This document shows, one piece after another, positions 37,498-48,010 of a stretch of DNA of 64,000 nucleotides. How positions within the stretch are numbered: the stretch's first letter is position 1; the number at the start of each line of letters is the position of its first letter. The position numbers and the translations under genes were made by a program. The DNA comes from Actinomycetaceae bacterium. Lineage in GTDB: Bacteria > Actinomycetota > Actinomycetes > Actinomycetales > Actinomycetaceae. The notes beneath the pieces were generated by a model that made no database searches, was not told where the DNA came from, and saw only the letters and a program-made list of their open reading frames with translations. The stretch spans positions 72,334 through 136,333 of the forward strand of contig JAUNHH010000005.1 in the NCBI GenBank assembly GCA_030524055.1. The letters run 5' to 3'.

Positions 37498-38490
37498 ATG
37501 AAAGCCCTTGCCTTGAAAAAATATGGTCAGCCCGAAGAATGGGTTGATATGCCCTTGCCGCGGCCAGAGCCTGACCAGGTCGTCGTCAAAGTAGCGGCAG
37601 TGGGCCTCAATCCTTTAGATCGCATGATTGCTGATGGGCAATTTAAATTGCTTTTCCCTTATCGGCTGCCTCAGATTATGGGTAATGAATTTTCCGGGGT
37701 TATTACTGAGGTGGGCAATAATGTGACTGACTGGAAAATAGGGGATGAAGTTTATGCTCGTCCTAATATTCGGCACCTGGGGGCCTTCGCTGAATACATT
37801 GCCGTGAATGCGGCAGACCTTGCGCATAAACCAGCAAATCTTTCTTTTGAGGAAGCAGCATCCTTGCCATTGGTATTGCTGACCGCAATCCAGGCATTTA
37901 CCGAGAAAAGTACGGTTGGCCCAGGGGTAACTGTGTTTATCCAAGGTGGCGCTGGCGGGCTAGGTGCCATTGCGATTCAGGTGGCAAAGTATTTAGGTGC
38001 AACGGTGGCAACCACTGTGAGTGCCAAGGATATTGACCATGTGAAAAAACTGGGCGCGGATATTGTTATCGATTATCGACGTCAGCGTTATGAGGAGCAT
38101 ATTCACAACTACGATATTGTGCTTGACACTATTGGAGGTGAAGAAACCTATCGGGCGATGACGGTTCTGCGCCCAGGTGGCCAACTCATTAGCGTTGTTG
38201 CCGCACCTGATGCTGAATTTGCCCGCCTCATCGGCAAGCCCATAATGGCGCCAGTCATGGCTTTTATGAGTAGGAAACAACGGGGCGCCGCGAAAAAACT
38301 CGGGGTGAACTATTCCTTCCTTTTTATGCGCGCAAATGGGGCGCAACTCGCTTCTTTTACTCCCGTGATTGAGGAGGGATTAATCCGACCTTTTATTGGG
38401 GAGGTTGTGCCATTCGATGAACTTCCGCAAGCGTTAGCAAACCTTAAGCAGCCGAAGAAGACCTCGGGGAAAGTTGTTGCTGCCCTCTAG
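37498..38490 (+). CDS. Zinc-free quinone oxidoreductase-like MDR enzyme
   Basis: 330 aa medium-chain dehydrogenase/reductase: MKALALKKYGQPEEWVDMP, VAAVGLNPLDRMIADGQ, MGNEFSGVITEVG and the NADPH loop IQGGAGGLGAIAIQVAKYLGA (split). No zinc-binding Cys cluster, so it is of the quinone oxidoreductase (QOR/ZTA1) kind that reduces quinones or enones. Paired with the divergent HxlR gene, a frequent arrangement for quinone or electrophile stress. Confidence 0.93.
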   Translation: MKALALKKYGQPEEWVDMPLPRPEPDQVVVKVAAVGLNPLDRMIADGQFKLLFPYRLPQIMGNEFSGVITEVGNNVTDWKIGDEVYARPNIRHLGAFAEYIAVNAADLAHKPANLSFEEAASLPLVLLTAIQAFTEKSTVGPGVTVFIQGGAGGLGAIAIQVAKYLGATVATTVSAKDIDHVKKLGADIVIDYRRQRYEEHIHNYDIVLDTIGGEETYRAMTVLRPGGQLISVVAAPDAEFARLIGKPIMAPVMAFMSRKQRGAAKKLGVNYSFLFMRANGAQLASFTPVIEEGLIRPFIGEVVPFDELPQALANLKQPKKTSGKVVAAL

Positions 38491-38522
38491 ATTTGAGGCT
38501 TCAGAGTCTTCAAGGAGGAAAT

Positions 38523-39068
38523 ATGCGCTCATTCGTTACCTATGTTGGAGGGGCTGTGGGGCTTATCTTTCTTCTTGCCGCGTGTGCTGCACCTAGCGGG
38601 GCTCAGTCTTCCGAGCATCAATCTGGCAATGTGCAGGCGATGAGTGGCGCTATTCAGGGGCGGTCTGGGCAATCGGCAGCTCAACAGGTAGGAAATCGGA
38701 GCCCACTATTGACCGTGGAAAACTCCAATTGGGGTGAGGTGTCGAATGCTGAGGATTATTTATCACGTGAAGTCGCGATTGTTTATGGCGACGGGTCGGT
38801 GGAGTTTTATCGCGAATATAATCTGAGGGGAAAAGTTGATCAGCAACAGCGCACATTAAGTGAGGCAGAATTTGCTGATTTGCGGCGTCTGCTTGCCTCT
38901 TTCGATGGAGACTTAAGTAGGAAAGCAGGAGTTGATGGCGTGGGGTGGAACTTTACGATTCACGACTCTGAAGGAGCAGTGACGAAAAGCGGGGAAGGGT
39001 ATCTCAGCAGCAGCCCGTCCTTTGAAAAGATTGTCGATGTGGTGATGCCACAGCGCCTCCAGGAATAG
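38523..39068 (+). CDS. Predicted lipoprotein of unknown function
   Basis: 181 aa. Signal with lipobox LLAACA (Cys about residue 21), a Gln/Ser/Gly-rich linker and a C-terminal domain (REVAIVYGDGSVEFYREY, EFADLRRLLASFDGDLSRKAG, WNFTIHDSEG) of about 110 residues that I do not recognise. ATG 38523 follows AAGGAGGAAAT, which fixes the start. Starts 32 bases after the reductase stop and may share its transcript. Confidence 0.8.
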   Translation: MRSFVTYVGGAVGLIFLLAACAAPSGAQSSEHQSGNVQAMSGAIQGRSGQSAAQQVGNRSPLLTVENSNWGEVSNAEDYLSREVAIVYGDGSVEFYREYNLRGKVDQQQRTLSEAEFADLRRLLASFDGDLSRKAGVDGVGWNFTIHDSEGAVTKSGEGYLSSSPSFEKIVDVVMPQRLQE

Positions 39069-39118
39069 GGCCCCGTCGCGGGAGGCTGTCTTACCGCTGT
39101 ACATGCAGGTCATCATTA

Positions 39119-39130
39119 ACGAGGGCGGGG
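39119..39130 (+). repeat. GAGGGCGGGG repeat copy
   Basis: ACGAGGGCGGGG, about 50 bases after the lipoprotein stop. Confidence 0.7.
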
Positions 39131-39279
39131 TTGATCTGATTCAGAAGGACTCCGATTTAGTGCATCTCTGCCTTCTTACAAGCGCCCACACGAGGAGGTT
39201 GTCGAGTATGATCGACAAGGGTAAGACGTCCTTGCTATGGAAGATCGTATTATTCCTCGTCCCCGCTATTTCGAGCGGA

Positions 39280-40137
39280 TTAAGCCCAGAGTTCCTCTTC
39301 CAATTCGATCTTCCCCATGGAGAGAATACGGCTGCGAATATCAGGATCTGCCCATAGGTGCGCAATATGAGAGGGGACAATCTGCCAGGAAACGCCCCAT
39401 TCATCCTGACACCATCCACATTGTTCCGCCTCCGCCTTCCGCGAGAGCCCTGCCCATAAAGCATCCAATTCAGCCTGCGAGGACACGCTTGCCGAAATGG
39501 AGACTCCCGGAGAAAAAGTGAAATCGTGGAATGTTCCCGAGTCCATTGCGGCAAACCAGCGGCCACGCAGAGTGAAATTAGTAAATTGGATTGTGCCAGC
39601 ATCTAGTGGGCCCTTTTCGTCATAGCGAAGAAGGGACTTGCGTTCGCCGCCGAAAAGGCTCATCCAATGGTTGGTGGCCGCTTCACAATTGCCATGATTG
39701 CTCCCGCCGAACATAAATGCAGGAATGAAGAACGGTGCAGGTTCGCCAGCCGGGTCAGTCAACATTAACTGCCAGGTAAATCCAAAGCGATCCCGAACCC
39801 ATGCATATAGCGGACTAAAAGGATACTCGCCTAAGGGCATTAGGTCCCCGCCCTCGCCCAACTGTGCATGGCATTCCCGAAGGTAATCGCGGGCCCCATC
39901 CTCGCCGCCAAAGAGTAGAGGGTCGAAATTTAATACCCCGCTAATAGAAGGATTGGGCGTGTAACTTTCATCCGCCGCCAAAATCATCAGCTGCTCACCG
40001 TGAATCGCAATCTGCGCGACATTTCCCGATTTCTCCACCGTCACATCGCGAAAAATCTCTGAATAATAATCAATGGCCGATTCCAGAGGCTCGGAAATCC
40101 ATACACAGGGGACAATTGATAGATCGCTCTTTGTCAT
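39280..40137 (-). CDS. VOC-family (PhnB-like) protein, two domains
   Basis: 285 aa with two tandem glyoxalase/PhnB-like halves: IVPCVWISEPLESAIDYYSEIF and GALNFDPLL-type first half (VLNFDPLLFGGEDGARDYL), then FMFGGSNHGNCEAATNHWMSLF and the closing LDALWAGLSRKAEAEQCGWCQDEWGVSWQIV (split). It resembles the 3-demethylubiquinone methyltransferase-like group, which are metal-binding-fold proteins without a proven reaction. ATG 40137 is chosen by family alignment; the frame is open to 40185. Confidence 0.85.
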   Translation of the reverse strand: MTKSDLSIVPCVWISEPLESAIDYYSEIFRDVTVEKSGNVAQIAIHGEQLMILAADESYTPNPSISGVLNFDPLLFGGEDGARDYLRECHAQLGEGGDLMPLGEYPFSPLYAWVRDRFGFTWQLMLTDPAGEPAPFFIPAFMFGGSNHGNCEAATNHWMSLFGGERKSLLRYDEKGPLDAGTIQFTNFTLRGRWFAAMDSGTFHDFTFSPGVSISASVSSQAELDALWAGLSRKAEAEQCGWCQDEWGVSWQIVPSHIAHLWADPDIRSRILSMGKIELEEELWA

Positions 40138-40217
40138 AGGGGAAGAATAGGTGTCAATAACTGAGACCCTGGCATTAAGGCACAATGGGCGTGGCGCTAC
40201 CCTGTATAGATACCGCC

Positions 40218-40230
40218 GCCCCGCCCTCGT
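40218..40230 (-). repeat. GAGGGCGGGG repeat copy
   Basis: GCCCCGCCCTCGT in the divergent region between the VOC gene and dps. Confidence 0.7.
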
Positions 40231-40352
40231 GGATTGTTGTCCACTTCCCGAAGTGCCCCTGAAAAGGCCCTAAGACCAAAGTCCTAGATTGTGTGACCAA
40301 CGCACCCGTCCAGCTTCCGCCACATATTGGCTAAGGGGACTAAGTTGGGGTT

Positions 40353-40841
40353 ATGGCGAATACTACGATTCAGAATCCTCCTGTTGCTCCTGCATTCACC
40401 GCCTCTGCTGAGCTCACCGCGAGCCTGCAGCGTGCACTCGTTGACGTCACCGCCCTGAGCCTGGTGGGCAAGCAGATCCACTGGAATGTTGTGGGCCCGA
40501 ACTTCCGTGACCTCCACCTGAACCTGGATGAGGTTGTTCTTATCGCTCGTGAAGGCTCTGACCAGCTGGCCGAGCGCATGCGCGCTATCAACGTCTACCC
40601 CGACGCACGTCCTGAGACTGTGGCGTCACAGACCTCCGTGCCGCAGGCACCTGAAGCTGCTGTGATCACCGCTGACGCCGTGAACTACATTGTGTCCGCG
40701 ATTAACGCTGTCACTATCACCCTGCGTGAAATCCACAGCGTGGTCGATGATGCTGACCCCTCATCTGTTGGCATTATTGAAGACCAACTGCAGCGTCTTG
40801 AACAGCAGTCATGGTTCCTTTCCGCTCAGAACTACAGCTGA
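40353..40841 (+). CDS. dps: Dps-family ferritin-like DNA-protection protein
   Basis: 162 aa. Dodecameric mini-ferritin that oxidises and stores iron with peroxide and shields DNA. Ferroxidase residues are in place: H43 (KQIHWNVVGPNF), H55 and D59 (LHLNLDEVV), with the long helix AREGSDQLAERM following. Ala/Thr/Pro-rich N-terminal tail. Gene is monocistronic and has biased codon use suggestive of high expression. Own terminator at 40878. Confidence 0.95.
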   Translation: MANTTIQNPPVAPAFTASAELTASLQRALVDVTALSLVGKQIHWNVVGPNFRDLHLNLDEVVLIAREGSDQLAERMRAINVYPDARPETVASQTSVPQAPEAAVITADAVNYIVSAINAVTITLREIHSVVDDADPSSVGIIEDQLQRLEQQSWFLSAQNYS

Positions 40842-40877
40842 GCGCTGAGCATCTGGCGGGCTCAGTCCGCCAATAAC

Positions 40878-40918
40878 AAAACTCCCTGGTGCGCCAATAA
40901 AGCGCGCCGGGGAGTTTT
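40878..40918 (+). terminator. Terminator of dps
   Basis: Arms AAAACTCCC (40878-40886) and GGGAGTTTT (40910-40918), inner GCGC pair, ending in a T run. A second small hairpin (TGGCGG/CCGCCA) lies just before. Confidence 0.8.
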
Positions 40919-40940
40919 CGCTATTTCGATATAATGCGCT

Positions 40941-41924
40941 ATGCGCACAGAGATTTGTTATCAGGGTAAGCTCTTTCCATCAGATCCAGAAAAGACTGTT
41001 CCCATTTCAATGGGGCTATCTCGCGACGGGATAATTGTCCTGTGGGCTAGTCGTATCGGCGCAGAAGAAATACTCTCATGGGGCGATGCTGGCATTGCGA
41101 TGTCAACGCAGACGCCTCAAGGGCACTCAGTATCTATTGCGCGTTATAACTCAGATGGCGATTTCCTTTCCGCTACTTCTATCGAGAACTTCTCCTTATG
41201 TTGGCCATTTATTGGCGAATTCCCTAATGGAGATATCTGTCTTGTGGCGGCACGATGCGCGTTTAACCAGGGGCAACCAGAAAACAATGCGCGGATTTAT
41301 GATTCTGACGGGAATTTCCTACGTGAGGGCTGTTTTGGGGATGGGGTTGAGCATTTAGCCATCGACGATAATGGTCTGATCTGGGTGGGCTATTTCGATG
41401 AAGGGATTTTTGGTAATAGGGGCTGGGATAACCCTTTAGGTGCGGCAGGAATCGTTGCCTGGAGCGCCGATTTTCATAGGAACTGGGAAATGCCCGACTA
41501 TCTTATTGCTGACACCTATTCGCTGAATATCGCTAATCAAGAAGTCATTTCCTGCCCCTACACAGGCCTTGACAATGACTTTCCATTTGTCAGGATTCGC
41601 GATGGTAAAGCGACAACATGGGAAACTAATAGTGAAGTAAGCGGTCCCTTTGGAGTTGTTTCTAATGGCTGGGAATATGTAACGATCGGCAGTTATGAGC
41701 ATTCCTTAGCCTTTTCCCGCCATCTCCTTGAGGGAAATAGACTCCGTTCCTCGCGTAGCGGGGTGTTATCCATTGACGAGGGCGGGACTGCACTGCTCGA
41801 AGGGCTCCAAGGGAAGGATGAGCAACGCCGCAAAGCTGGCCCCGTTTGGGACAAAGTTATCTGTCGAGGTAGGGTAGCGCACTTTTTTGTTGGCTCTCAC
41901 TGGTTTACCTACGAGATGGAATAG
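40941..41924 (+). CDS. Hypothetical protein, beta-propeller-like
   Basis: 327 aa cytoplasmic protein with recurring short blade-like segments ending in aromatic-Asp-Gly turns: RYNSDGDFLSATS, IYDSDGNFLREG, AIDDNGLIWVGYFDEGIFG and VRIRDGKATTW. This spacing suggests a beta-propeller. No catalytic motif and no signal peptide. A GAGGGCGGG repeat copy (41776-41786) is read in frame as DEGGT. Function unknown. Confidence 0.75.
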   Translation: MRTEICYQGKLFPSDPEKTVPISMGLSRDGIIVLWASRIGAEEILSWGDAGIAMSTQTPQGHSVSIARYNSDGDFLSATSIENFSLCWPFIGEFPNGDICLVAARCAFNQGQPENNARIYDSDGNFLREGCFGDGVEHLAIDDNGLIWVGYFDEGIFGNRGWDNPLGAAGIVAWSADFHRNWEMPDYLIADTYSLNIANQEVISCPYTGLDNDFPFVRIRDGKATTWETNSEVSGPFGVVSNGWEYVTIGSYEHSLAFSRHLLEGNRLRSSRSGVLSIDEGGTALLEGLQGKDEQRRKAGPVWDKVICRGRVAHFFVGSHWFTYEME

Positions 41925-42028
41925 GGGAGGGCCGGACCTGTCCCGCCTAGGACTGCATACCTCTGTGGGAGGTATTGATGGGTGCGCAATCCCATTGTGG
42001 CTGCGGTTTGTGCTGCGGCGGGACTTGC
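41925..42028. other. Intergenic stretch with small hairpins
   Basis: Two short hairpins (ATACCTC/GAGGTAT near 41958-41976 and ATGGG/CCCAT near 41979-41996) precede the 19-bp-pitch array. No gene seen. Confidence 0.45.
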
Positions 42029-42163
42029 CTCAAGGCATAGTTTGTTTCTCAGGGCAGAGTTCGTGTCTCAAGGCACCGTTAAATTGCGAATTAACGGTGC
42101 CTTGAGCGACAAAGTATGCCTTGAGCGCGGAACTATGCCTTGAGAGTCGAACCATGCCCCAAG
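42029..42163. repeat. Head-to-head array of 14-bp elements on a 19-bp pitch
   Basis: Three forward copies of CTCAAGGCATAGTT-like elements start at 42029, 42048 and 42067; four inverted copies (AACTATGCCTTGAG-like) start at 42093, 42112, 42131 and 42150. Every step is exactly 19 bases and the 5-base spacers differ. The first six copies are symmetric about 42086-42087, and the central pair extends to a perfect 16-bp palindrome. As RNA it would fold into one long stepped hairpin; as DNA it offers regularly spaced protein sites. Function unknown. Confidence 0.8.
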
Positions 42164-42236
42164 GCGCCGCCTCGCCCTCGTAAATGAAAGTGCAGGTGCG
42201 ATCTGAGCCCTGCCAGCACCACCGCCACCACCCTGA
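42164..42236. other. Spacer with variant GAGGGCG repeat
   Basis: Between the two arrays. Carries a degenerate repeat copy CTCGCCCTCGT at 42171-42181. Nothing else seen. Confidence 0.4.
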
Positions 42237-42328
42237 TTGACAAATTGCCGATTTCAGCGATGACGGATTATCGATTTCAGCGTTGACAAATTGTAGACTT
42301 CAGGTATGACGGATTATCGATCTCGCGT
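42237..42328 (+). repeat. Four tandem 23-bp units overlapping the DUF4143 ATPase start
   Basis: Units at 42237-42259, 42260-42282, 42283-42305 and 42306-42328. Units 1 and 3 begin TTGACAAATTG; units 2 and 4 begin ATGACGGATTATCGAT; all four share xTGACxxATTxxxGA and a TTCAGC or TCGCG end. The ATG of unit 4 is the start codon of the ATPase, and no Shine-Dalgarno sequence precedes it. Iteron-like; probably protein-binding and autoregulatory. Confidence 0.75.
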
Positions 42329-43559
42329 GGTTGATAGCGAGTTAGCTGCGAAAATGTCAGCTATGGGCGCTGTTCTTATCGACGGGCCGAAGGCGGTAGG
42401 GAAGACCTTCACTGCCGAACAGGTTGCGGGCACGATCATGCGTATGGATGTTGACCGAGCTGCCCGCGCTGCACTAGAGATCGATCCGGACCAACTTTTT
42501 CGAGCCACACCGCCCATCGTCTTTGATGAATGGCAGGAAACCCCCGACCTGTGGAACCTCGTCCGCCGTGCCGTTGATGACCATAAAGGCAAAGGCTTGT
42601 ATATTTTGACCGGTTCTTCTCGCCCTCGCGATCAGGCGCGAGTGCACTCTGGGGCTGGCCGCATAGGACGGCTCCGAATGAGGCCGATGTCCCTTGTCGA
42701 GTCGGGACACTCCAGCGGAGAGGTTAGCCTCAAGGCCCTTCTCAGTGGCGAAGAACCAAGCGGTACGCCGCTTCCTCTGACCATTACGGATCTTCTTGAG
42801 CGTATTGTCATCGGCGGTTGGCCAGATTTATTGGAAGCCGACGAGTATGACAGCAGGATTTGGCTTCGCGATTACAGTCGCAATATTGCCGAAATTGATG
42901 TGCCAGGACTGGGACCACGGCGGAATCCAGGAAATATCACCCGGCTCCTAACAGCATTGGGCCGCGCAACGGGCACGCCGCAAAACCTTTCGGCACTCGC
43001 GCGAGATGTCGGTGGGGCTCGCGGTCCGATAGCGTCCGAAACACTCACCAATTACATGGAAGCACTAGAGCGTCTCATGTTGATTGAGCCTCTTCCCGCC
43101 TGGCAACCGCATATGCGTTCAAAAACGCGTTTACGTACCTCGCCTATACAGCACTTTGTCGATCCCTCGCTGGGAATTTCTACTCTCGGCGTGGACAGTA
43201 ATGCACTTGCACGCGATCTTGAAGCAGCAGGACTCCATTTTGAATCGATGGTGCTCAGGGATCTTCGCATTTATAGTCAGTCTCTTGGTGCTCAACTCTA
43301 TTCCTGGCGAGATTCACAAACAGGTGCCGAAGTTGATGTGATCCTCGAATACCCTAATAGCTCCTGGGCAGGTATCGAAATTAAAATGGGGGAGTCTGCA
43401 GTGGACAGCGCTGCAGAATCACTTTTGCGTTGCGCGCAGAAAATTGATTCCGATAAACACGGCGACCCAATAGCGCTAATAGTAATAACAGGCGGCCGCT
43501 ATTCCTATCGTCGTCCAGATGGCGTCTGCGTTGTCCCCATTACTGCACTTGGGCCGTAG
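42306..43559 (+). CDS. AAA_14/DUF4143 ATPase
   Basis: 417 aa. N-terminal P-loop domain (AAA_14) with Walker A GPKAVGKT (27-34) and Walker B IVFDEWQE (71-78), then ILTGSSRPRD; winged helix region; C-terminal DUF4143 with a PD-(D/E)xK-like core (FESMVLRDLRIYSQ, YSWRDSQTGAEVDVIL, AGIEIKMGE). Such proteins are widespread in actinobacteria and gut bacteria, often without known targets; the nuclease-like core suggests nucleic acid handling. The start codon sits in the last of four 23-bp units, so translation or transcription may be tied to that array. Confidence 0.9.
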   Translation: MTDYRSRVVDSELAAKMSAMGAVLIDGPKAVGKTFTAEQVAGTIMRMDVDRAARAALEIDPDQLFRATPPIVFDEWQETPDLWNLVRRAVDDHKGKGLYILTGSSRPRDQARVHSGAGRIGRLRMRPMSLVESGHSSGEVSLKALLSGEEPSGTPLPLTITDLLERIVIGGWPDLLEADEYDSRIWLRDYSRNIAEIDVPGLGPRRNPGNITRLLTALGRATGTPQNLSALARDVGGARGPIASETLTNYMEALERLMLIEPLPAWQPHMRSKTRLRTSPIQHFVDPSLGISTLGVDSNALARDLEAAGLHFESMVLRDLRIYSQSLGAQLYSWRDSQTGAEVDVILEYPNSSWAGIEIKMGESAVDSAAESLLRCAQKIDSDKHGDPIALIVITGGRYSYRRPDGVCVVPITALGP

Positions 43560-43578
43560 TGAGTAGATTCTTTATTCG

Positions 43579-43618
43579 CGAGGGCGGGGGCGCTATTAGT
43601 TACCCGCCACCGCCCTCG
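43579..43618. terminator. Paired GAGGGCGG repeats between convergent genes
   Basis: CGAGGGCGG (43579-43587) and CCGCCCTCG (43610-43618) lie between the ends of the DUF4143 ATPase and the alpha/beta hydrolase; the right copy is inside the last hydrolase codons. Confidence 0.5.
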
Positions 43619-44300
43619 TAAATCTGCCAATGAGCCACGCTACTTTCTCAGCGTGAGTTAATGGCGCAAGATGAGTCGATCTGGGCACAATCGCGAGTTT
43701 TGCCTGCGGTGCAGCGCGCAAAAACGCCTTCTCAGTGAAGCGCATCTGATCAAACTCGCCATTAATCAGCAAAACTGGCCGATTAACTCCCCCTAAAAGC
43801 CCCGGACTGCAACTGGCAATAATCGAGTTCCAGATTGCTGGCAACTCTTTATACTTCGGCACATCAGGAACTTGCTCTTCCCTGACACCTAATGCACGCA
43901 TTACCGTAAGGCGCGTTTTTGACACTTTATCAGGGTGGGCGCCCTGAGCAATCCGCCCATAGATACGATAAACGCCAGCAAGACGGTGAATAGGATCTCC
44001 AGTGGCACCAATTAATATAAGGCCACTGAGGTTGCGCCAATTCCGCACCGAATAAAGGGTGGCGACATATCCTCCGAGACTGTGTCCTACAAGAATGACT
44101 TTTTGCCCAGGCGCCCGCTTATTCACAGCCTCGGCAATAGTTTCCACTGCTGCCACTAAAGACCATGACTCATCAAAGCGGCTTCCGTGCGCCGGTAAAT
44201 CAATAGTGACAACGTCGCATTCGGGAAGGAGGTCGGCATAACCCAACCATTGGGCAGAAGAAGCCATTGAACCGTGAATTAAAATCACTAGTGGTTTCAT
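43596..44300 (-). CDS. Alpha/beta-hydrolase
   Basis: 234 aa. HG oxyanion (LIHGSMASSAQW), nucleophile S74 in GHSLGG (72-77), catalytic Asp in LLINGEFDQM and His in PRSTHLAPLTH. Full-length small esterase/hydrolase of the Abhydrolase_6 type. Substrate unknown. Sixteen bases upstream of the end of the NAD(P)-binding gene, so the two form a minus-strand operon. Confidence 0.9.
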   Translation of the reverse strand: MKPLVILIHGSMASSAQWLGYADLLPECDVVTIDLPAHGSRFDESWSLVAAVETIAEAVNKRAPGQKVILVGHSLGGYVATLYSVRNWRNLSGLILIGATGDPIHRLAGVYRIYGRIAQGAHPDKVSKTRLTVMRALGVREEQVPDVPKYKELPAIWNSIIASCSPGLLGGVNRPVLLINGEFDQMRFTEKAFLRAAPQAKLAIVPRSTHLAPLTHAEKVAWLIGRFTRAVAGN

Positions 44301-44315
44301 GATAGGCCCTGCGAA

Positions 44316-44969
44316 TTACCTGCGGAAAACCTGGACAGCGTCAGCAACGGGTGTGTCACCATCGGTGGCTTCAATAATCACCCGAGAAATATCCGGCTGG
44401 TGAAGTACCTCGTCAATAAGAGCCGCGACATTCTCGCGTCGAATATCCCCGTATTCAACGGCCCAACCCGCATGAACTCGCCCATCGCCGGGCTCATTCT
44501 TTAATGTCCCGGGCCGCACTATTACCCAATCTAAAGGCGAAGCTGCGAGGAAAACATCCGCGCTTTTCTTCACACGCATATAGTGTTCAAAGCCTTCGCG
44601 TGGTGTTTCTCCTCGCAAAGCATCGGGGAAAACAGAGACGAGAATAAAACGAGAAATGCCTGCCTGTTGAGCCGCTTCAACAGCTTTTTCTAGCCCTTTG
44701 CCGTCAATCAATGTGGTTTGATCAAGGCCTGTTCCATGCGCACCCGCAGAAAATACAATAGCGTCATGTCCAGCCATTTTCTTAGCCAATTCTTCGACAC
44801 TATCAGCGATCAAATCGCCCAATAATGGCTGACCGCCTGCATCGCTAATACGCGCAGCCTGCTCAGGCTGACGATGCAGCCCTGTGGAAATATCACCACG
44901 TGCAGTTAACAACCGAGTTAGCGGCACGCCAACTCCGCCAGCTGCGCCAATCTGAAATACGCGCATCAC
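44316..44969 (-). CDS. NAD(P)-binding oxidoreductase (atypical SDR, YwnB/HSCARG type)
   Basis: 217 aa. N-terminal nucleotide loop VFQIGAAGGVGVPLTRLL, DAIVFSAGAHGTG, ISRFILVSVFPDALRG and LDWVIVRPGTLKNEPGDGRV, the order seen in NAD(P)H-binding sensors and epimerase-like atypical SDRs. Lacks the YxxxK pair, so it may not be a classical reductase. First gene of the operon with the hydrolase. ATG 44966 is equally likely as start. Confidence 0.87.
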   Translation of the reverse strand: MMRVFQIGAAGGVGVPLTRLLTARGDISTGLHRQPEQAARISDAGGQPLLGDLIADSVEELAKKMAGHDAIVFSAGAHGTGLDQTTLIDGKGLEKAVEAAQQAGISRFILVSVFPDALRGETPREGFEHYMRVKKSADVFLAASPLDWVIVRPGTLKNEPGDGRVHAGWAVEYGDIRRENVAALIDEVLHQPDISRVIIEATDGDTPVADAVQVFRR

Positions 44970-45146
44970 GTTCTCCTTGGCAGTCGTTGCGTTAAGGTGG
45001 CAGGCATTGTCACCTATGAGCTACCACAATGGCTGATGTAGATATCGGCGTTTGTGACCCTCTTAGCTTCTCATGTGCTGATAGATCTGTCTTGGGGAAG
45101 CAGGTGGGTCAGGCAGCGCGACATCGCTCTATCCCTTCAGAGGCAT

Positions 45147-45165
45147 CTCCATTAGGCTGACCTAA
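45147..45165. promoter_or_regulatory. Candidate DtxR/IdeR iron box
   Basis: The 19 bases ending CTCC-ATTAGGCTGACCTAA match the DtxR/IdeR consensus TTAGGTTAGGCTAACCTAA at 14 of 19 positions, 33 bases before the haem oxygenase start. Suggests repression by iron. Confidence 0.55.
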
Positions 45166-45198
45166 GTAGTTCGTCGATTGTGCACTGAAGGAGCCCCA

Positions 45199-45492
45199 AT
45201 GACCTTCGTCAATATCACTGCCTTAACTTTCCCTGCCGGTGCAGAAGCGGAAATTGAGTGTCGTTTCGCTGCCCGCCAGCGTGCAGTTGACCAGTCTCCA
45301 GGTTTCCAAGGTTTCGAATTGCTTCGCCCTGTAATCGGCGAAAATCGATACTTCGTGGTCACCAGATGGGACACTCGTGAGTCCTACGAGGAGTGGCTGA
45401 CTACCCGCGTCGCTGATTCTCATGCGAATGACGAAAAGCGTGGCATGAGTATTGACGTCCTCGGATTCGAGGTCGTTCAGCACGACGAATAG
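45199..45492 (+). CDS. MhuD/IsdG-like antibiotic biosynthesis monooxygenase (haem-degrading type)
   Basis: 97 aa ABM-fold protein. GFQGFELLRPVIGENRYFVVTRWDTRESYEEW (split) closely follows the MhuD/HmoA pattern, including the His (about 75, SHANDEKR) that ligates haem in those enzymes. Family members open the haem ring to free iron. The iron box just upstream supports an iron-scavenging role. ATG 45199 follows GAAGGAG. Monocistronic, ended by paired repeats. Confidence 0.85.
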   Translation: MTFVNITALTFPAGAEAEIECRFAARQRAVDQSPGFQGFELLRPVIGENRYFVVTRWDTRESYEEWLTTRVADSHANDEKRGMSIDVLGFEVVQHDE

Positions 45493-45513
45493 GTAATTCC
45501 TCCAGGGCAATTC

Positions 45514-45572
45514 ACGAGGGCGGGGCAAGCCTGGCGCAGTGCCATGTGTATTAAGGCGTGCCCCGCCCTCGT
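45514..45572. terminator. Paired exact GAGGGCGGGG repeats between convergent genes
   Basis: ACGAGGGCGGGGC (45514-45526) and GCCCCGCCCTCGT (45560-45572), 33-base loop, between the ends of the haem oxygenase and VOC genes. Perfect 13-bp stem; works in both directions. Confidence 0.6.
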
Positions 45573-45595
45573 TACTGGTATACCCAGCGAATCAC

Positions 45596-46366
45596 TCAGA
45601 GCTGCACGACGCTAAAACCGACCCCATCAGGGTCTGCGCATCGTCCGATCCGACCCCACGGAGTGTCTGTCACCTCAGAAAGAAGCGTGCCGCCCAGGTC
45701 GCGTACGCGCTCACACGCACTATCGGCATTGGCGACAGCAAAATAGATCTCCCAACCCACGGGGAATGAACCCCGCTCGAATTCTTGGGTCGTCGAACTT
45801 AGTCCAACCTGAGCCTGTTCACCAGGCCCATTTGTGACGAATTCTAAGGAGGGGTCAAGGATCTGAGGATCCCAGCCAAAGGCCGTGGTAAATAACTTGA
45901 CTGCCGCAGAGAAATTCCCGCCATAAGCCTCATGCCATACGGGGAAACCTGCCTCGAATGGAGTGGGGTCCTCCTCTTTTGGCAAGGATAAAAGGCCAAT
46001 ACGTAATCCGCAGGGAACTCCAACTGCAGCGAAACTTGTCGTGTCATCAATAGGAGTTGGCGGGGTGAAAATAGTGGCGCCACCATCCTGCGCGCGCTTG
46101 GCTGCTAAAGCCACGTCCTCAACCCCAAGTGAAACGAGCCAACCAGAAAAACCAGGATCGTTTCCTTCTGCGGCAATTGCTGGCTCGAAACTGGTGAGTA
46201 ACCGCCCGTGGTGAGTGACAGGGCGATTCAGCGGCATATCGTCAGTGGGTGCGTTAATTTCCCAACCGAAAAGTGCGGCGTAGAATTCTTCTGTCTTTTC
46301 GCTGGCGCCATAACGCTCTATCCATAATGGATTGCCTGAAATTCTCGTGTGAGATGCTGCTGTCAT
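45596..46366 (-). CDS. VOC-family (glyoxalase/dioxygenase fold) protein, two domains
   Basis: 256 aa with two VOC halves: WIERYGASEKTEEFYAALFGWEI and DPGFSGWLVSLGVEDVALAAKRAQDGGATIFTPP (split), then VWHEAYGGNFSAAVKLFTTAFGWDP and CADPDGVGFSVVQL. Similar to actinobacterial glyoxalase-like proteins of the 27 kDa antigen (Cfp30B) group; reaction unknown. ATG 46366 has GGAGG upstream, better than the ATG 12 bases earlier. Confidence 0.88.
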   Translation of the reverse strand: MTAASHTRISGNPLWIERYGASEKTEEFYAALFGWEINAPTDDMPLNRPVTHHGRLLTSFEPAIAAEGNDPGFSGWLVSLGVEDVALAAKRAQDGGATIFTPPTPIDDTTSFAAVGVPCGLRIGLLSLPKEEDPTPFEAGFPVWHEAYGGNFSAAVKLFTTAFGWDPQILDPSLEFVTNGPGEQAQVGLSSTTQEFERGSFPVGWEIYFAVANADSACERVRDLGGTLLSEVTDTPWGRIGRCADPDGVGFSVVQL

Positions 46367-46498
46367 AAAAGCCTCCACAGTAGTGATTGTTCGCCTTTAG
46401 TGGTGTCTTTATCAGCCTAATAGAGAATGGCGAATGGATACGACTCCAATCCTGCTCTTTTTGCTGGCCAACGCGTCCACCAGCGCAGACTCCGATCG

Positions 46499-47296
46499 CT
46501 AGACAGAATAGGCAGCAGCAAGGGCAACCAATAGTGGTGGATAAATTTCCCTGGAAGGATGCACAGATAAAGTGATCTCAGTTTTCTTACCGCGTGGCTG
46601 GAGGGGAGCGGAGCCAAGTGCAACAAAAGGCGTGAGGGGCGCTAAATGTTCTTCGGGGTCAGCGCCACTGGGAGTTACTGTGGCGAGAATGTGATGAGCG
46701 TGAGGAAAAATAGGTATTTCCACGTCAATAATGCCTCGTCGGAGTGTGCCCGAATAGGGGAGACCGTGTGGAATAGGGGCCGAAAATGTGCCAATCCATT
46801 GAAAAGGAGCCGGGCCTAAAAGCGGACGAATCTGCTGCGGGATATCAAGGTGAATGCGCGCGGTATAGGGGCTTGCTTGTGTAAAAATACTCCGCTCAGG
46901 CAATGTTGATTCGGCAATTCGATCTCCAGATCGTCGGAATAGTCCAGGAGCTACCCCCACTGCTTTGGTGAAACGCCGAGTAAATGTTCCCACCGAAGAA
47001 TAACCCACTTCATAACAGGCTTCGGCGACTGTGGCATCCTCTAAAAGAAGGAGCCTTTTTGCTTCATGAAGGCGAATCATTGACAAATATGCCACCGGTG
47101 AAAAGCCAATATAGCGGCTAAAAAGTCGGGTGATATGGGATTCGCTATAAGCCAGGTGATCGGCCAGGTCGTAGATAGTGAGGGGCTGTGCATAATGCGC
47201 GCGCAAAAAGCGCAGTGCCTGTATTGGCAGATGGGTATGCAGGTGATTATGTGCGTCGGAAATGACGTCCCCGTGCTGATCCGCTGGCTCAGACAT
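46499..47296 (-). CDS. AraC-family regulator with GyrI-like effector domain
   Basis: 265 aa. N-terminal pair of HTHs: ALRFLRAHYAQPLTIYDLADHLAYSESHITRLFSRYIGFSPVAYLSMIRL (split), with the AraC signature ACYEVGYSSVGTFTRRFTKAVGVAPGLFRR. The C-terminal half (ARIHLDIPQQIRPL ... HAHHILATVTPSGAD) looks like a degenerate ligand-binding domain. Reversed order (DNA-binding first) is as in Rob/SoxS-related regulators. Probably controls an adjacent gene such as the VOC protein; target unknown. Confidence 0.9.
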   Translation of the reverse strand: MSEPADQHGDVISDAHNHLHTHLPIQALRFLRAHYAQPLTIYDLADHLAYSESHITRLFSRYIGFSPVAYLSMIRLHEAKRLLLLEDATVAEACYEVGYSSVGTFTRRFTKAVGVAPGLFRRSGDRIAESTLPERSIFTQASPYTARIHLDIPQQIRPLLGPAPFQWIGTFSAPIPHGLPYSGTLRRGIIDVEIPIFPHAHHILATVTPSGADPEEHLAPLTPFVALGSAPLQPRGKKTEITLSVHPSREIYPPLLVALAAAYSV

Positions 47297-47336
47297 AGCG
47301 TCACCCTAGCCTTCCGCTGGATCCTTTGCTGTTGAT

Positions 47337-47349
47337 ACGAGGGCGGGGT
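47337..47349 (+). repeat. GAGGGCGGGG repeat copy
   Basis: ACGAGGGCGGGGT between the AraC gene start and the TetR operator. Confidence 0.7.
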
Positions 47350-47374
47350 GCTTCTTCAGTGGACTCCCCCCACG

Positions 47375-47419
47375 TGACCGGAGTCAAAAATGACTGCGGT
47401 TCATTTTTGACTCCGGTCA
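47375..47419. promoter_or_regulatory. TetR operator palindrome of the TetR/MFS/PPDK-like operon
   Basis: Perfect 19-bp inverted repeat TGACCGGAGTCAAAAATGA (47375-47393) and its complement (47401-47419), 7-base spacer, ending 15 bases before the TetR start. Long enough for two TetR dimers or one extended site. Confidence 0.8.
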
Positions 47420-47434
47420 TGTTAGTCTTCCCGC

Positions 47435-48010
47435 ATGAGTGACCGAGTGGCCCGGCGGCGAGCCGAGGTGAGAGAACGAATCTTCACCCAAGCCATGCGC
47501 CTTTTTGTTGAGCGAGGATTCGATGCAGTGACTGTCGCCGAAATTGCTGACGCCGCAGAGATTGCCAAAGGGACTTTCTTTACGCATTTCCCGTCAAAGC
47601 GGGATATTTTCCGCTATCTCGGCGAGCAACTTGTTGACGTGATGGAAAAGCAGGCGCCCACTCAGGGCGGTGCACGTCATCGCATTGATACCGCCCTTAA
47701 CGCTGCAGCGACATGGATGGAAGACAATGCTGACCTCGCTCGGATGATGCTCCAATCCCGTAGCTTTAATTTCTCTTCCGATATTGGCTCGCCTAGTCAG
47801 CAGCGTTTCGCAAGCCTTATTACTGAAGCTCTGACCCTGGGCGTAAATAGCGGTGAGTTGCGCGCTAACCTTCCTATTTCTGACGCTGTCGTGCTGATCC
47901 AAGGAATCTGGTATGTCAACGTCATTCAATGGGCCGCCTCTACCAGTGATCGTCCCCTTAAAGACTATATTCACTCCGCCCTCGATATTGTTTTTCAGGG
48001 GGCCGAATGA
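47435..48010 (+). CDS. TetR-family repressor
   Basis: 191 aa. HTH: RERIFTQAMRLFVERGFDAVTVAEIADAAEIAKGTFFTHFPSKRDI (split), then a helical ligand domain. Start just after the long palindrome, so autorepression is expected. Overlaps the MFS start by ATGA. Controls a three-gene operon with a drug-exporter-like MFS and a rifampin-phosphotransferase-like enzyme, so its ligand may be an antibiotic or plant/host toxin. Confidence 0.95.
   Translation: MSDRVARRRAEVRERIFTQAMRLFVERGFDAVTVAEIADAAEIAKGTFFTHFPSKRDIFRYLGEQLVDVMEKQAPTQGGARHRIDTALNAAATWMEDNADLARMMLQSRSFNFSSDIGSPSQQRFASLITEALTLGVNSGELRANLPISDAVVLIQGIWYVNVIQWAASTSDRPLKDYIHSALDIVFQGAE

Follow-up and report, generated by a model that had tools for sequence, protein, structure and literature searches.

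Organization of the array in the window

The stretch analyzed here (the window, 64 kb) lies on contig 13 (C13) of a 3.03-Mb, 47-contig genome of the Schaalia/Actinomyces group. The pckG protein of this genome is 91 to 93% identical to those in records of A. bouchesdurhonensis, A. mediterranea, Actinomyces sp. HPA0247, Schaalia georgiae, and Sanguibacter keddieii 250_SKED; the label of the last record (93% identity) looks wrong. Two forward-strand genes enclose an array of seven 14-bp elements: a 327-aa open reading frame (ORF) without a Pfam match (40941 to 41924) ends 104 bp before it, and the gene for an ATPase with AAA_14 and DUF4143 domains (42306 to 43559) starts 142 bp past it. Both genes are treated as neighbors, without membership in the element being implied.

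The array opens with three elements on the forward strand, an outer one (CTCAAGGCATAGTT, 42029 to 42042), a second (CTCAGGGCAGAGTT, 42048 to 42061), and an inner one (CTCAAGGCACCGTT, 42067 to 42080), followed by a 12-bp center (AAATTGCGAATT, 42081 to 42092) that holds the symmetry axis. Four inverted elements are then found on the reverse strand, at 42093 to 42106 (the inner one), 42112 to 42125, 42131 to 42144, and 42150 to 42163. The third of these closes the canonical 3+3 arrangement of 116 bp, and the fourth is decayed, with four mismatches, but still in pitch. These are exactly the positions given by the sequence-only reading, which we correct only in recognizing the seventh copy as decayed and in the mismatch counts: relative to CTCAAGGCATAGTT, the second and third copies and the first inverted copy carry two mismatches each, and the second inverted copy carries one. 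The mirror symmetry that it described for the first six copies holds for their positions, but in sequence the two middle elements depart from exact mirror symmetry. Six of the nine matches in the window (up to three mismatches) fall inside the 116 bp, compared with 4.2 expected over the entire 64 kb.

The array belongs to a family dispersed in the source genome

A search of the source genome with the window array gave 60 matches, both strands together. The resulting family, family A, comprises 169 elements in 29 clusters of at least two elements (loci L009 to L035 and the window array). Chance, which the sequence-only reading had already dismissed, is excluded because the array recurs in 29 clusters with a same-strand spacing of 19 bp in 115 of 116 cases (18 bp in the remaining one). 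Across the center, the start-to-start spacing is 26 bp in 22 of 24 cases. Layouts of 3+3 and 3+4 are the most frequent (five each), followed by 4+3 and 4+4 (three each).

Element statistics were drawn from 22 of the 29 clusters (145 elements), and the pairing alignment described below from the 18 that have a full 3+3 arrangement. Positions 2 to 4, 6 to 9, and 13 to 14 of the element are near fixed, and position 5 (A or G) and positions 10 to 12 vary. G6 and C8 occur without exception in the 145 elements, which is partly built in, as the elements were picked by similarity. The variation follows the place of an element in the array. Positions 10 to 12 of the inner elements are mostly CCG in one arm and GCG in the opposite arm, which gives the core of an A array a polarity. 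Contigs C26, C37, and C47 of this genome start or end within A arrays; the assembly is broken at the arrays, and the true copy number may therefore differ slightly.

Other repeats were seen in the same genome. The sequence TGACGAGGGCGGGG, with 266 exact occurrences in 3 Mb, is a second and far more numerous repeat found near several arrays, with degenerate copies in the window at 41771 to 41791 and 42166 to 42186. Two further repeat families lie beside several A arrays, with common stretches of ∼62 and ∼73 bp (L013, L016, L020, L024, and L031; L010, L015, L017, and L018). Contig C40 carries another mirrored array, built on the word GTTAGGGACAAA with a step of 20 bp (L197, 1600 to 1715), which we call family F; few copies are known of it and of family E, the 20-bp-step family of Actinomyces dentalis described below.

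Relatives have the same layout with other words

The A core pattern was found in 1 of 58 genomes searched, the source genome, the 57 relatives being negative. Blastn over 35 genomes of the genus likewise detected family A in the source genome only, and the exact A pair pattern had no match in genome_contigs, from which the source genome was possibly left out. A motif-free scan for mirrored arrays of 3+3 elements at a pitch of 14 to 40 bp recovered the window array and most arrays of the source genome. The scan was then applied to four relatives (G003, G005, G011, and G015), with 200 kb taken from each and a single hit in shuffled sequence. It found six 19-bp-pitch arrays in G011, built from a different word, ATSYGGATAGSTT, with a GGATAG core (family B). 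No 19-bp-pitch array was detected in the 200 kb from each of G003, G005, and G015.

The exact B pair pattern is present in 10 of the 35 genus genomes, with 1 to 49 hits each, and absent from the source genome; 3 of 17 named records also have it, and these are three of the same B genomes. Among the 61 B clusters that were fetched, the pitch of 19 bp holds for 235 of 238 same-strand spacings, and the center spacing is 16 bp in each of 60 cases; the eight G023 clusters among them come from seven fetched stretches and do not represent all G023 hits. G5, A7, and G10 are without exception in 228 B elements, again partly by construction, since these were picked by similarity. In ten B-negative relatives, no 19-bp array was found in up to 40 kb from each.

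A third family, C, was first met beside pckG of A. dentalis, where it has at least 68 matches (both strands) at no fewer than 40 places (40 of 79 candidates scored). Its same-strand steps are mainly 19 bp (55 cases) and 20 bp (27 cases), and a less strict motif search probably accounts for the other values. Actinomyces sp. AC-20-1 has a 2+2 array (L089). The sequence-only reading had named the absence of pitch or symmetry from close relatives as an outcome that would count against it; both are kept there, with other motifs.

Longer steps were also observed. Family E, a second mirrored family in A. dentalis with the word CGCGAGATCGTCACTTAACC and a 20-bp step, occurs near C arrays (L347, ∼1625 to 1757; L351, ∼1375 to 1488; L354, ∼1332 to 1425). 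Steps of 21 or 23 bp, with the words GACGGACGAATCTC and GAAGTCCGCTC, are seen in arrays of G015 (L235, near 9639 and 14437) and G014 (L370, near 18045), two genomes without family A or B hits. A phage or plasmid origin was considered and rejected: the exact A and B pair patterns have no match in viral_contigs, and window positions 41900 to 42320 gave no plasmid match by blastn.

Word and step are kept at orthologous sites

One B array is common to five species (G011, G025, G028, G034, and G023). Over its 105 bp the mean pairwise identity is 0.892, with 0 of 1,050 cells gapped, compared with 0.581 (78 of 750 cells gapped) in 75 columns of the left flank and 0.537 (42 of 550) in 55 columns of the right flank. 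In orthologous B pairs (30 comparable of 32), the GGATAG core differs at 40 of 1,080 sites and the spacers at 128 of 720, with the reservation that the 30 pairs are not independent and a few join neighboring paralogous arrays. Word and step are thus kept, as the array and its core are conserved relative to the flanks and spacers. The constraint has exceptions: five orthologous pairs with decayed elements account for 33 of the 40 core differences. Positions 3 to 4 of the B element change at 117 of 360 sites, faster than the spacers, with the changes mostly limited to C/G and C/T. Exchange among genomic copies could account for this fast change.

Arrays are intergenic, with a tentative lean toward the origin

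A first coding-score model was too weak and was replaced by better-trained gene calls. With these, no A or B cluster lies within a called gene, two B clusters touching a weak 119-aa ORF by 10 bp; among the 30 C loci, two share sequence with a called ORF. The A arrays lie in 8 convergent, 8 tandem, and 4 divergent intervals of 20, compared with 10, 59, and 14 of 83 background intervals. B clusters with both neighbors called are in convergent (30), tandem (24), and divergent (0) intervals of 54, orthologues and duplicates included. When the B regions of G011 were counted once, by eye, the figures were 12, 11, and 0 of 23. Of the background intergenic bases, 26% lie in convergent intervals (P = 0.008) and 14% in divergent ones (P = 0.066). 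The C arrays showed no bias (9 convergent, 9 tandem, and 8 divergent of 26).

Using dnaA and 38 marker pieces on two complete relatives, with several positions interpolated within a contig, 20 of 21 placed A loci fell in the origin half, only 8 contigs being involved. The other eight A clusters are those on C13 (the window), C35, and C37, which were not queried, those on C47, which has no clear place, and one that shares a placed region with another array; C13, C35, C37, and C46 are not among the 38 markers. Seven large contigs, 1.01 Mb together, have no A match. Of these, C30, C36, C5, and C44 (by one marker) map far from the origin, C41 and C4 gave no hit, and C46 was not queried; a second C44 marker maps near the origin of G003 at 45% identity. 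Contigs C11, C14, C19, and C23 map near the origin yet carry no A array. In G011, the mean origin distance of 22 B loci is 0.35 (0, origin; 1, terminus; KS P = 0.027), and 6 of the 22 lie beyond half, which is borderline (P = 0.052). The origin half holds 6 of 6 B loci in G025, 1 of 3 in G028, and 0 of 1 in G031. The origin-side position is a lean, not a law.

Core polarity relative to fork movement was dropped as a feature. Exact-pattern hits had looked co-oriented, but a fuller test gave 9 of 18 in G011, 5 of 6 in G025, and 1 of 1 in G031. For the A arrays, ∼11 agreed and 4 disagreed by hand with the sign chosen afterwards, and this count was not used.

DUF4143 genes are not the common neighbor

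The sequence-only reading had proposed a small repeat element near the DUF4143 ATPase and asked whether arrays always sit near a given gene. The element is indeed a dispersed repeat, but the gene is not what its copies share. The ATPase gene next to the window array is one of nine DUF4143 genes in the genome, and only 2 of the 29 A arrays adjoin such a gene, that in the window and one on C35 (L033/L157). When eight of the nine proteins (the other is a duplicate) were used to build a DUF4143 profile, it found no such gene beside the 61 B clusters, in 30 C loci, in 800 kb of four relatives, or in L235. By eye, the genes beside A arrays have no shared theme.

It is conceivable, if highly improbable, that a DUF4143/AAA_14 ATPase binds repeats upstream of its own gene and that the dispersed arrays are further operator or target sites. 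The window array does lie 142 bp before a DUF4143 gene and the C35 array upstream of another, and several DUF4143 genes of this genome (L158, L163, L164, and L165) have, by eye, their own short direct repeats just upstream. Those repeats are different ones, however, and the window gene itself has three to four tandem 23-bp units (TGACNNATTNTCGATTTCAGC, 42237 to 42324) that run up to and across its start codon. With so few A arrays and no B or C array tested next to such a gene, a DUF4143 link is not supported, and the upstream repeats are a separate matter from the arrays.

Pairing between the arms is not maintained

The window strand folds at −80.4 kcal/mol, far beyond shuffled sequence (z = −7.83), although strong folding is inevitable for a sequence of this kind, and the sequence-only reading had listed a long stepped RNA hairpin among its options. 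Such a stepped inverted repeat could act as RNA or single-stranded DNA, in the manner of REPINs, as a stabilizer of mRNA 3′ ends, or as a two-way terminator, and the leaning of A and B arrays toward 3′ ends and convergent genes is as reported for REPs (PMC3733652). Pairing of the arms did not bear this out. In 38 canonical B arrays of the 61 clusters, the identity of mirrored elements is 0.844, compared with 0.843 when the right arms are shuffled, and thus no compensatory change is seen. The 18 full 3+3 A arrays align gap-free, and all five pairing measures lie under the shuffled mean, with 495 to 500 of 500 shuffles reaching or exceeding the observed value; paired cells amount to 89.0% versus 90.4% in shuffles (500 of 500 at least as high). 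The result had the same sign with 22 A arrays, and the RNAalifold covariation term was 0.07 kcal/mol. That the A arms pair at 89% of cells in register, but at 26 to 45% when slid by one to three columns, is expected of any inverted repeat.

Alignment columns 48 and 69, which form a pair in the inner elements, are mismatched in 14 of the 18 A arrays. The inner B elements have C versus G at position 11 in 28 of 38 arrays. Owing to this C/G change in the innermost element pair of most A and B arrays, each palindrome has a direction. If anything, perfect pairing seems to be avoided, which would fit the prevention of extrusion of a long palindrome. No terminator-like site was found at 41800 to 42450, and an intrinsic terminator was rejected; no Rfam match reached the gathering score at 38000 to 48000. 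A hairpin as the selected feature is therefore unlikely and was rejected, as B arms lack compensatory change and A arms pair below shuffled levels, and we give the functional versions named above very little credence.

Arrays are gained or copied at unrelated places

Near-alike arrays occur at unrelated places and match even in their spacers. The A arrays L009 and L011 are 0.92 identical, compared with 0.35 in the one comparable flank, and the G011 arrays at 166832 and 1992227 are 0.91 identical, with flanks at 0.37 and 0.32. Some intergenic regions contain two to four arrays. Occupied and empty sites also exist: G022 lacks a 340-bp array-holding stretch of G011, and G031 lacks a 482-bp one of G023. 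Since near-alike copies are found at unrelated places and sites can be occupied or empty, arrays have been copied or gained.

These observations, together with the patchy copy number between species, are what would be expected of a miniature nonautonomous mobile element, in which the elements would be stacked transposase sites, only intact arrays would be copied, and spread would occur without benefit to the cell. Other results fit it less well. In both occupied/empty alignments the additional DNA exceeds the array in length, with no clean border or duplication seen. A gene flanked by half arrays, as in an autonomous copy, was found neither among the 100 of 141 motif matches listed nor in the fetched loci. 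The Y1/RAYT transposase (PF01797), the one type searched for, was detected in 0 of 35 genus genomes, the source genome included, compared with 5 of 14 control genomes. Orthologous arrays, moreover, persist across species under clear constraint, unlike dead MITE copies. We consider the mobile element a possible but rather doubtful explanation.

Comparison with known repeat systems

The sequence-only reading knew of no named element with this form, and we likewise found no paper on such arrays in an open paper library, which covers open-access literature alone. The arrays resemble REP, BIME, and REPIN sequences, which share tens of intergenic copies, inverted units, lineage-specific sequence, and, for A and B, a bias toward 3′ ends and convergent neighbors. 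A REP unit, however, is defined as a palindrome of 20 to 40 bp with a GTAG or CGTC tag (PMC3733652), occurring singly or as a doublet, whereas the arrays consist of 13- to 14-mers in a 3+3 arrangement at exact pitch. By inspection, the consensus words CTCAAGGCATAGTT and ATSYGGATAGSTT (13 to 14 bp) have no stem-loop and no GTAG or CGTC tag on either strand. REP and REPIN intergenic sites are mainly tandem or convergent, which B arrays match (0 of 54 divergent); divergent intervals hold 4 of 20 A arrays and 8 of 26 C arrays. Hairpin pairing is not maintained in the arrays, and an identity with REP/RAYT systems was rejected, as the Y1 transposase is absent from the 35 genus genomes.

MITEs, too, are short, noncoding, inverted, and dispersed, with near-alike copies at unrelated places. 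Set against this, no target-duplication signature was seen in the two aligned cases, no autonomous partner appeared among the 100 of 141 matches listed or in the fetched loci, and constraint spans every array element rather than the ends. Plasmid iterons, and the arrays bound by AAA+ initiators, are short direct repeats with a step near 19 to 22 bp and one protein bound per repeat, which recalls the present step. Iteron arrays, however, are direct, number one or two per origin, and have a rep gene as their neighbor, whereas ∼29 mirrored arrays are scattered here between chromosome genes. The parS (ParB) and matS sites are likewise dispersed and sequence specific, and their bias to one half of the chromosome resembles the origin-side lean of the arrays, but these are single short palindromes whose motifs are conserved over wide taxa, in contrast to the six-element arrays, whose motifs turn over within a single genus. 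CRISPR loci share a repeat and spacer at a constant step but have direct repeats of 24 to 48 bp, unique spacers of similar size, and cas genes; the arrays have 14-bp elements separated by 5- to 6-bp spacers, with some three copies in each of two mirrored halves, and occur at dozens of loci.

Interpretation and significance

Among the three options of the sequence-only reading, its cooperative protein-binding array fits best, given the near-fixed core, the fixed pitch, the lack of covariation between arms, and the constraint at orthologous sites; the protein itself is our inference. We propose that the arrays are candidate sequence-specific, cooperative protein-binding sites on double-stranded DNA, with a 19-bp step and three units on each side of the dyad, a proposal that, drawn from sequence comparison, we hold to have an even chance of being right. 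A protein would bind each element on double-stranded DNA in a sequence-specific manner, bound units would stack cooperatively at the fixed 19-bp step, and three units from each side of the dyad, about six in all, would form one symmetric complex. The exact step, the mirrored 3+3 arrangement, the near-fixed core, the constraint, the change of motif between families, and the lack of a constraint on pairing would all be explained by a protein that reads the word and stacks in register. A step of 19 bp corresponds to ∼1.8 helical turns, which is not a whole number; a row of dimers on the same face of the DNA therefore does not fit and a helical stack would be needed, in which the units would wind round the helix. 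Each motif family would presumably have its own cognate protein.

The leanings toward convergent genes and the origin side suggest a role of these putative binding sites in chromosome organization or topology. Such a role would be exerted at the level of the chromosome, as organization in the origin-side half or as topology between convergent genes, rather than as control of a single neighbor. Several observations speak against this reading. Of 35 genus genomes, family A is present in 1 and family B in 10, a patchiness that would be unusual for a core role in the chromosome. Docking is also countered by the C arrays, which are not enriched between convergent genes, by the A arrays that lie between divergent ones (4 of 20), by the decayed elements at some orthologous sites, by the exceptions to the origin lean, by the lack of a relation between core polarity and fork direction in G011 (9 of 18), and by a step that is not a whole number of turns. 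Spread of the arrays as units, by whatever route, could account for their number and patchiness. A bolder version, which we offer as speculative and on the whole improbable, is a new class of predicted chromosomal nucleoprotein site, with a grammar of 3+3 elements at a 19- to 20-bp step, a filament-forming protein family, a motif-protein pair for each species group, and an organizing or anchoring function on the origin side.

The usual explanation for dispersed repeats in bacteria is a REP/RAYT hairpin or a MITE. In the present case, selection keeps a spacing grammar and the word changes between relatives, which makes the arrays a testable case for coevolution of a putative DNA-binding protein with dozens of chromosome sites. 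For Schaalia odontolytica, a member of this group, a saturated transposon library has been described (PMC12369343). If the proposed binding sites are real, many intergenic regions of mouth actinomycetes would turn out to contain a constrained element that lacks annotation.
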